This document shows, piece after piece, positions 61,377 through 63,947 of a stretch of DNA of 64,000 bases. Both the position numbers and the translations under genes were made by a program. The stretch comes from Neiella litorisoli (GTDB lineage: Bacteria > Pseudomonadota > Gammaproteobacteria > Enterobacterales > Neiellaceae): assembly GCF_014773395.1 (NCBI RefSeq), contig NZ_JACXAF010000024.1, forward strand, positions 1 to 64,000, in the 5' to 3' direction. Within the stretch, counting starts at the first letter, position 1. Each line of letters opens with the position of its first letter. The notes under the pieces were generated by a model. It did not search any database, was not told the origin of the DNA, and saw only the letters and a list, made by a program, of their open reading frames with translations.

Positions 61377-62222
61377 ATGATGACCAATAAATTAACTCAA
61401 CTAGTTCAGAACTATCGTCAGGAGCAGCGTTGCCTGGCTGGTTTCAACATCAACGACATATACGATTTACACGCGGTCGCGCTGGCAGCGAACGAGCTTG
61501 ATTTGCCCTTTATGGCGATGACGTATCCGCCGGTGGCTGAGCTCAATGGCACTTATCTGTGTCGCAAGATGGTCGATGGTTTTGCCAAGATCGCCAATAA
61601 CGACATCTTTTTGCACCTTGATCACAGTACCTCGGTTGATTTGTGTAAGCGCGCCATTGACGACGGTTATGACTCAGTGATGATTGACGGCTCGCATCAG
61701 AGCCTCAAAGAAAACATCGCCATGACCAAAGAAGTGGTGGCATATGCCCGCAGCGCTGGTGTCACCGTCGAAGCGGAAATCGGCAAGATCATGGGCCGCG
61801 ATGTGGTGGTGCAGTGCGAAGATGATTACCTCGCATCGGTTGCTGACGTCAAAGCGCTTTACGAAGAAGCAGGCCCAGACATGCTGGCTGTCGGCATTGG
61901 TACGGCCCACGGCTTTACCCCAACCACACCGAAAATTCACTTCAATCGTTTGCAAGAAATCGCTAACGCTGTCGCCGCGCCACTGGTGCTACACGGCGGT
62001 ACCGGTATTGCTGATGAAGACATTCAAAAAGCCATCACCATGGGCATTGCCAAGATCAATATTGGCACCATCGTCCACACCACTTACATGCGCGAAGCGC
62101 ACAAAGAGATTGATGCCGATGTCGGCGCAGCATACCCGCCGTATGTCATGAAGTCGGTGATCCCACGGGTACAAGCGGTGGTGGTGGATCGCTTGAAAGC
62201 GGTCAATCCGCATCTGAAATAG
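61377..62222 (+). CDS. Class II ketose-(bis)phosphate aldolase
   Basis: The 281-residue aldolase has the zinc-ligand His pairs and surrounding motifs of the class II FBP/tagatose-bisphosphate type: FLHLDHSTSVDLCKRAIDDG, GVTVEAEIGKIMG, GIGTAHGFTP and VLHGGTGIADEDIQKAI. It should cleave the phosphorylated ketose to dihydroxyacetone phosphate and an aldehyde. It ends the operon; a terminator follows. Confidence 0.87.
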   Translation: MMTNKLTQLVQNYRQEQRCLAGFNINDIYDLHAVALAANELDLPFMAMTYPPVAELNGTYLCRKMVDGFAKIANNDIFLHLDHSTSVDLCKRAIDDGYDSVMIDGSHQSLKENIAMTKEVVAYARSAGVTVEAEIGKIMGRDVVVQCEDDYLASVADVKALYEEAGPDMLAVGIGTAHGFTPTTPKIHFNRLQEIANAVAAPLVLHGGTGIADEDIQKAITMGIAKINIGTIVHTTYMREAHKEIDADVGAAYPPYVMKSVIPRVQAVVVDRLKAVNPHLK

Positions 62223-62256
62223 TTTCCTCCTCCTCCTGATTCTGACAAATCAGGAG

Positions 62257-62299
62257 CCTCAGCCAGCATTGTCCTGTTGCTGGTTGAGGACATTTTTTT
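62257..62299 (+). terminator. Aldolase operon terminator
   Basis: The stem CCTCAGCCAGCA/TGCTGGTTGAGG (one G-T pair) is followed within two bases by seven T residues. It separates the operon from the dehydrogenase gene. Confidence 0.8.
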
Positions 62300-62526
62300 G
62301 CCGATTGTACTTAGGCAAGAAGAGGGAGCAGAACATTGCTAAAACCGCAATCAAATTGACGGATGGTGCAGATATGTTGGCGACAAGCATCTGCTGCAGG
62401 GAGCAGCAGTTGAGCCATCAGGGATGATTTCACGGCGTCTTGTCGAAAACGTCTCTGTACCAGCCGCAGAACCAATTTCAAGGCTTGTGCGAGTTCATTG
62501 ATAGATGTTTTGAGCCTGCAGAGCCC

Positions 62527-62792
62527 AGAGCCTGTTGAACTTTGGTGTATGAATTTTGTTCGTTCAAAATGCTCCTTTGAGCAAGAAACGAGCTATGCCG
62601 TATAGCAATCTATATAAATAGCGAGTGACGCAGCGAAATGAGCATTTTGACGAACCCTTCGGGCAGCGTTTATTGGCAATTTATTCAGCGTCAGCGGTTA
62701 TTCATTGACGGCCAGTCAATTTCATAACCGCTTCCTTGCCTAAATCACCAATAAATTGCAGCAAAAACATACAGCAAAGATCAACAGGCTCT
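62527..62792. mobile_element. MITE-like element with 25-base terminal inverted repeats
   Basis: The ends AGAGCCTGTTGA...TGTATG (62527-62551) and CATACAG...TCAACAGGCTCT (62768-62792) are inverted repeats matching at 23 of 25 positions. Inside are further nested inverted repeats: GTTCGTTCAAAATGCTC against GAGCATTTTGACGAAC, AGCGGTTAT against ATAACCGCT, and GCAATTTATT against AATAAATTGC. There is no room for a transposase. A target-site duplication is not obvious. Confidence 0.75.
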
Positions 62793-62825
62793 AATTAACT
62801 TATCTAATCATTGAGGGCAAATTAT

Positions 62826-63947
62826 ATGTCTATTGCAATTCCAGAGCAGGCCAAAGTCGCAGTACTGACCGAGCTGAAAAAGTTTGAGTTTCAACATCAT
62901 CCGATTCCACAAATTAGCGATGATGAAATTTTGGTAAAAGTTGAAGGTTGCGGCGTTTGCGGCACCGATGTTCATGAATATCGTAACGATCCGTTTGGCA
63001 TGATCCCTGTTGTGTTGGGCCATGAGGGCTCAGGTCGCATCGTCAAATTGGGTAAAAACATCACCACAGACTCTACTGGCAAACCGGTCGAAGTGGGCTC
63101 AAAGCTGATCACCAGCATCATTCCATGTGGTGAGTGTGGGCCTTGTACCAGCACGCCGGGTCGGACCAACTTGTGTGAAAACATGGGTTGTTATGGGTTG
63201 ATGGGCGACCAACCGGAGAACAAATTCAACGGCTGGTTTGGTGATTATCTCGTGTTGAAACCTGGCTCAACTTTCTTTGAGGTGTCCGAGTTTAGCCTCG
63301 AAGAACGTATTCTAATTGAGCCGGTGGCGGTTGCTGTTCATGCCGTTGAGCGTGCTAAAACCACCAACCTGCTGAATTTTGCTTCACCTGTATTGATTCA
63401 AGGGGCAGGCCCAATCGGTTTGTCGATTATTGCGGTGCTCAAGGCCATGGGGATTCAAAACATCATTGCAGTTGATGGTCAGAACGATCGGCTGGAATTG
63501 GCAAAAGAATTGGGCGCTTCGCAAGGCTTGAATTTCAACGAGTTTGAATCAACTGAAGCACTCGCAGCAAAAGTTCAAGAGTTGACATTAGGCCGCGGCG
63601 CTCAGTTTGCATTCCAGTGTACTGGCAGCCCAGCGGCGGCTTCGACGGTTTGGAAACTGATTGCCCGGGGTGGCGGTTTATGTGAGCTTGGCTTCTTTGT
63701 TGATAATGGCGAAGCGAAAGTGAATCCTCACTTCGATATGTGCAACAAAGAAATCACCATGGTTGGTTCTTGGGCTTACAGCCCAGAGGATTATCCAAAT
63801 GCCATTGCTTGCATGAAGAGTATCAAAGACGCAGGCTTGCCGATCACCAGGCTAGTGACGCACGTATTCCCACTGGATCAAATTGGCGAAGCCGTTGAAA
63901 CCAATATCCGGATGGAAGGGATCAAGGTCATCACCGTCAACGAGTAA
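62826..63947 (+). CDS. Zinc-dependent sugar/polyol dehydrogenase (MDR family)
   Basis: The 373-residue medium-chain dehydrogenase has the catalytic-zinc Cys in GCGVCGTDVHEYR and HE in VLGHEGSG. The structural-zinc site is CGECGPC...NLCENMGC, and QGAGPIGLSIIAVLKAMG is the NAD fold. I start at ATG 62826, preceded by GAGGG; a TTG at 62811 is in frame. The family includes sorbitol, threitol and similar polyol dehydrogenases. A terminator and the MITE-like element separate it from the sugar operon, so a shared pathway is only suggested by proximity. Confidence 0.82.
   Translation: MSIAIPEQAKVAVLTELKKFEFQHHPIPQISDDEILVKVEGCGVCGTDVHEYRNDPFGMIPVVLGHEGSGRIVKLGKNITTDSTGKPVEVGSKLITSIIPCGECGPCTSTPGRTNLCENMGCYGLMGDQPENKFNGWFGDYLVLKPGSTFFEVSEFSLEERILIEPVAVAVHAVERAKTTNLLNFASPVLIQGAGPIGLSIIAVLKAMGIQNIIAVDGQNDRLELAKELGASQGLNFNEFESTEALAAKVQELTLGRGAQFAFQCTGSPAAASTVWKLIARGGGLCELGFFVDNGEAKVNPHFDMCNKEITMVGSWAYSPEDYPNAIACMKSIKDAGLPITRLVTHVFPLDQIGEAVETNIRMEGIKVITVNE

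Follow-up and report, generated by a model that had tools for sequence, protein, structure and literature searches.

What is the 266-bp non-coding segment that separates a class II aldolase gene (ending at coordinate 62222) from a zinc-type dehydrogenase gene (starting at coordinate 62826) in the 64-kb stretch of Neiella litorisoli DNA analysed here (the window), and what maintains the inverted repeats that fill it? The segment, at 62527–62792, had been described in an initial annotation as MITE-like, with nested inverted repeats that let the whole element fold into a branched structure. The interior of a MITE is commonly taken to be dispensable filler that varies from lineage to lineage. We examine below the ends, target, copies, relatives and fold of this element, and then weigh what could account for its interior.

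Limits and ends of the element

The segment is one copy of a 266-bp gene-less non-autonomous transposon (MITE). The transposon proper, on the + strand, extends from G62528 to C62791, and A62527 and T62792 are part of the TA target; with these outermost bases counted as target, the coordinates given initially are right to the base. The 25-base ends are, as proposed, inverted repeats agreeing at 23 positions, which can be read directly from the sequence, and they can be lengthened without gaps to 30 nt with 87% complementarity. The left terminal inverted repeat (62527–62556, + strand; AGAGCCTGTTGAACTTTGGTGTATG...) and the right one (62763–62792, + strand; ...CAAAGATCAACAGGCTCT) both match the end of an IS5 element of the ISSod6 type. 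The inverted repeats noted in the interior are also real (e.g. 62564–62578 with 62636–62650). At 266 bp the element is too short for a transposase gene, and it is not itself an autonomous IS5 member, having no coding capacity and encoding no DDE transposase. A covariance model spanning the whole element (R1) finds only one element locus in the 64-kb window.

Target site and empty orthologous site

A search with the upstream flank located the orthologous site in the sister species Neiella marina J221 (G002; Alteromonadales, Echinimonadaceae), where the two flanks adjoin with ~95% identity to those of the window and the element is absent. The window copy is thus species-specific, and conserved ancestral intergenic sequence is ruled out. 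The junction reads GAGCC-TGAC-TAAATTATC in Neiella marina and GAGCCC[element]AATTAACTTATC in the window, with small differences such that the exact target bases are not readable from this pair alone; the YTAR site in Neiella marina reads CTAA and is unoccupied.

Insertion is at Y-TA-R with duplication of the TA. TA is present on both sides of 22 of 26 copies in the window's genome (the preceding base is Y in 23 and the following base R in 25), of 21/25 copies from the order, and of 7/12 copies from other orders. The window copy retains the right TA, the flank at 62793–62794 (no strand) giving CTAA together with T62792, and its left TA is degraded, the flank reading CCCA.

Copies and deletion forms within the genome

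BLAST comparison with the 46 contigs (4.32 Mb) of the genome to which the window belongs identified, besides the window copy, 16 near-full-length relatives (at least 17 near-full-length copies in all) that are 84–97% identical, together with many short forms and isolated single ends. There are thus further copies, and the segment is not conserved ancestral sequence, the two points on which the MITE-like call had been made to depend. Full-length copies read with their flanks are 266–268 bp. Three of the near-full-length copies are 316–332 bp, and the 332- and 316-bp copies (L019 1101–1432, L020 1006–1337 and L021 1006–1321) contain an extra block of ~66 bp, composed of small hairpins, at one fixed point. 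In different genomes, extra hairpin blocks of unlike sequence (~66 bp or ~15 bp) occupy one and the same position in the left domain (also in L116 and L058).

Internal-deletion forms of 175, 97, 92, 77, 67, 56 and 52 bp are also present. The 52-bp forms are barely more than the two ends. Both Neiella genomes have them, at several TA sites (L029, L034, L035, L104, L105 and L106); they may be mobile in their own right, or may instead be deletions in place. At one further locus (L027, ~990–1049) two element ends lie back to back (TCAACAGGCTCT followed by AGAGCCTGTTGA) beside a 49-bp truncated copy.

Distribution

Copies, mostly of 263–268 bp, occur in at least eight families of the GTDB order, in other orders, and in another class. 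At a threshold of E <= 1e-5 (model E-values being rough), R1 matches 80 of 197 genomes sampled from the order, with 16 families represented, 35 of 274 genomes in the class sample, and 52 of 299 in the phylum sample, many of these last from one family outside the class; matches in all three samples are mostly full-length. Plasmid records contain full-length elements in Vibrio, Pseudoalteromonas and Catenovulum, and partial ones in Methylophaga, Azotobacter, Halomonas, Pseudomonas aeruginosa and Magnetococcus. No carriage was found in the E. coli and phage collections searched, and another Neiella relative (G001) is without the element.

IS5-type elements with the same ends

The initial annotation had suggested looking for an insertion sequence that shares these ends, and an end-sequence search led to the annotated IS5-like elements ISSod6, on the Shewanella oneidensis megaplasmid, and ISSpu10, on NDM plasmids of Vibrio cholerae and Leclercia, whose transposases are DUF4096 + DDE_Tnp_1 proteins. 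Both resemble the MITE in their terminal inverted repeats GGG[TC]CTGTTGATCTTTG, flanking TA and Y-TA-R site, but are ~866 bp long with a transposase gene and have dissimilar interiors. Their ends beside the TA read GGGTCTGTTGATCTTTG...CGAAAGATCAACAGACCC, with the left end given as GGGTCTGTTGATCTTTGCTG. Within the order, intact relatives end in the same way, again next to TA. The resident IS5 and MITE of genome G061 share ends even to the left/right difference TTTGCTG / TTTCG, and a genome of another order (G318) has five IS5 copies with ends GGGCGTGTTAACACTAAT + TA and MITE ends GGGCCTGTTAACACTA. The pairing of IS5 and MITE ends is not universal, as the sole clear IS5 end type in genome G554 is unlike the MITE ends.

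When the IS loci are compared with R1 the matches are weak and mostly terminal, and the interior is not IS-derived; an IS remnant is rejected, no likeness to the IS interior being seen. We found no ISSod6-like transposase in Neiella marina or in the window's genome, where absence is not proven because a draft assembly can lose an IS, and among the order genomes occurrence of the MITE is not associated with that of an ISSod6-like gene (10/20 vs 80/197). A DDE_3 search of the window's genome for an IS630-type partner gave no matches.

There is good support for mobilisation in trans by transposases of the IS5 type. A transposase of the ISSod6/ISSpu10 kind (DUF4096/DDE), where present, would bind the 5'-G[AG]G[CT]CTGTTGATCTTTG ends, and the bound enzyme would presumably move the element in trans.

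A conserved fold in the interior

The branched structure proposed for the element is borne out, and is conserved through compensatory changes. As RNA the whole element folds at -105 kcal/mol, where dinucleotide shuffles give -60.3 (sd 4.3) and hence z -10.4; the other strand behaves similarly (z -9.8). The common fold, to which no strand is assigned, consists of a central stem (inner part 62554–62558, paired with 62762–62766), two long hairpins, and a 3-bp hairpin between these. In the window copy the left hairpin domain is at 62559–62654 (consensus helices 4–9) and the right at 62664–62761 (consensus helices 11–15), with the 3-bp hairpin CCCTTCGGG at 62655–62663, between both domains and present in all aligned copies.

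Thirty-two copies within the order, representing six or more GTDB families, were aligned (A1); their lengths are 264–268 bp, a few insertions aside, and RNAalifold predicts 81 pairs in this alignment. Two-sided (compensatory) change is seen in 49 of the 81 pairs, 95.3% of cells have standard pairs (vs 82.8% in column shuffles and 35–44% with slid partners), and the covariation score is 0.363 vs 0.139; as the fold is derived from these same sequences and the shuffles ignore relatedness, an independent set matters. Such a set is provided by 13 copies from genomes of other orders, found with R1 (which was built from A1) and having interiors mostly below BLAST reach. Among these, 92.9% of pair cells are standard vs 37–44% in slid controls, and 58 pairs show two-sided change, in an alignment fitted to R1, which favours pairing, although lengths of 263–268 leave little room for gaps. 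Primary motifs common to both sets are the terminal repeat start AGGG.CTGTT, ACCC...GGG, GCGTTA, ATGTAG...ACTACAC, and TGCCTTG. Across orders, compensatory changes have preserved the two-hairpin structure of the interior, which is old and constrained in length and appears to be under selection.

The two big hairpins are alike in reverse complement, such that R1 matches both strands of every copy, and sequence similarity from hairpin to hairpin is clear in some copies only (z 5–8 in 4/34). A single transcribed strand is rejected, as both strands fold equally well; with no strand preference, its site of action might be DNA, or RNA from either strand. No Rfam 15 family matches the element at gathering score, and a known RNA family is thereby rejected. 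Among open-licence papers we found no description of this element family.

Neighbouring genes

The insertion lies 33 bp upstream of the dehydrogenase start codon, and is absent there in Neiella marina. It had been proposed that the element may influence dehydrogenase expression; being 33 bp before the start codon it could possibly do so, but a simple consensus scan of 62200–62900, element included, found no promoter-like or terminator-like site and gave this proposal no support. The same scan did not detect the upstream terminator mentioned in the initial annotation, for which an inverted repeat followed by T's (~62262–62298) is seen by eye only.

Several copies elsewhere abut the stop codon of a neighbouring ORF, with TAG rebuilt from the target TA and the first G of the element (L009, L010, L016, L018, L023 and L030). 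A stop codon is an inexpensive landing place, and such insertions are expected for an element that targets TA.

Just upstream of the window copy, at 62381–62446, is a member of a second, unrelated repeat family of ~60 bp (CGACAAG...CTTGTCGA), which has more than 50 copies in the genome, often clustered ~150–600 bp apart, and is also present in Neiella marina and two other families. A weak, sub-threshold Rfam match (Ysr224) overlaps this repeat. At another locus (L052 1346–1460) a TPP riboswitch lies ~90 bp from an element copy.

Class and relation to known systems

The initial classification as MITE-like stands, with many copies, TA target duplication, an empty site in Neiella marina, and an IS5 with the same ends. 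The element has the type II MITE features examined here: terminal inverted repeats, small size without a transposase, dispersed copies with target duplication, an empty orthologous site, and ends, rather than an interior, in common with an autonomous IS. It departs from the textbook MITE in the long-term conservation of its length and fold.

ERIC elements, of ~127 bp, have a TA target and internal-insertion variants, and the Correia elements also have a TA target. Romine et al. are said to have described, in 2008, a MITE of Shewanella oneidensis, SonMITE_1; as a MITE in a related member of the order it could be a relative. The present element resembles ERIC as a small, structured, intergenic multi-copy MITE over several bacterial families, and the Correia elements of Neisseria in being non-autonomous with inverted-repeat ends; effects on transcripts are known for Correia, which differs in its ends and its host group. 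REP or ERIC identity is rejected, the ERIC2 primer sequence (the one motif tested) being absent from the window at 3 mismatches. ERIC is confined to Enterobacteriaceae and Vibrionaceae, and a 204-bp Correia element has been described in Neisseria (PMC10969869).

What maintains the interior

Given its mobile history, its target, the identity of its ends with those of IS5, and its conserved fold, we consider the element very probably to be a type II MITE with IS5-type ends, mobilised in trans, with an interior fold selected at the nucleic-acid level. That selection would act on a folded transcript, or on extruded or single-stranded DNA, a step that we put forward with less assurance than mobilisation. 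Against the reading as a whole are the failure to find an ISSod6-like transposase in either Neiella genome, the lack of association between such a gene and the MITE across the order, the degraded left TA of the window copy, the chance that the 52-bp forms are in-place deletions, and the fitting of the distant alignment to R1. The fold would most likely aid persistence of the element, leaving it inert or insulating, or subject to RNase processing, when transcription passes through, as has been reported of both Correia and ERIC. Persistence is preferred to a need of the transposase because 52-bp copies that are little but ends lie at TA sites in each of the two Neiella genomes, an argument that mobility may need no more than the ends.

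These same 52-bp forms, which have none of the interior and yet lie at several TA sites in each of the two species, also speak against the possibility that the hairpins are required for mobilisation, through binding of transposase or a host factor or through single-stranded DNA intermediates. The shared architecture and partly shared sequence of the two hairpins, and conserved unpaired motifs such as AACG, GCGTTA and TGCCTTG, would fit such a role, but IS5 elements themselves carry no such hairpins, and we regard it as rather unlikely. It is improbable, too, that the element is first of all an RNA or DNA structure of use to the hosts that retain it, such as a mobile transcript-end or mRNA-stability module, whose mobility is secondary. 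The site of insertion is peculiar to the species, many other genomes of the order (that of the Neiella relative noted above among them) are without the element, and the equal folding of both strands indicates no transcribed strand. In favour of this view are the copies abutting stop codons, the conserved fold, and the precedent of Correia and ERIC, with their RNase III and RNase E effects (PMC10969869).

An ordinary IS5 internal-deletion MITE, with incidental inner palindromes and a likeness across lineages that reflects recent horizontal spread only, would account for the IS5-matching ends and for within-genome copies that are 84–97% alike, as recent amplification predicts. It would not account for an interior unlike that of the IS, nor for cross-family copies that share about 67–80% identity with the window copy, or escape BLAST altogether, and still keep a length of 263–268 bp and pairing via double changes. 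Recent spread predicts near-identical sequence rather than compensatory change, so this explanation is strongly disfavoured and we think it very improbable.

Within the favoured reading of a trans-mobilised MITE with a selected fold, a more speculative extension, which we offer as possible though doubtful, is that the interior is an ancient nucleic-acid structure which has a selected function of its own and has been carried through the Gammaproteobacteria and one or more further classes of Pseudomonadota, its ends being repeatedly re-matched to local IS5-type transposases. Set against the usual view of MITE interiors as filler, this MITE has ends that match local IS5 and a length of ~265 bp and an 81-pair fold held across orders with strong covariation. 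If our reading is right, the element would rank among the most widespread gammaproteobacterial structured repeats that no Rfam model yet covers; covariance model R1 is available for annotating it. It would also make testable what selects for MITE interiors, whether mobility, transcript fate, or host tolerance.
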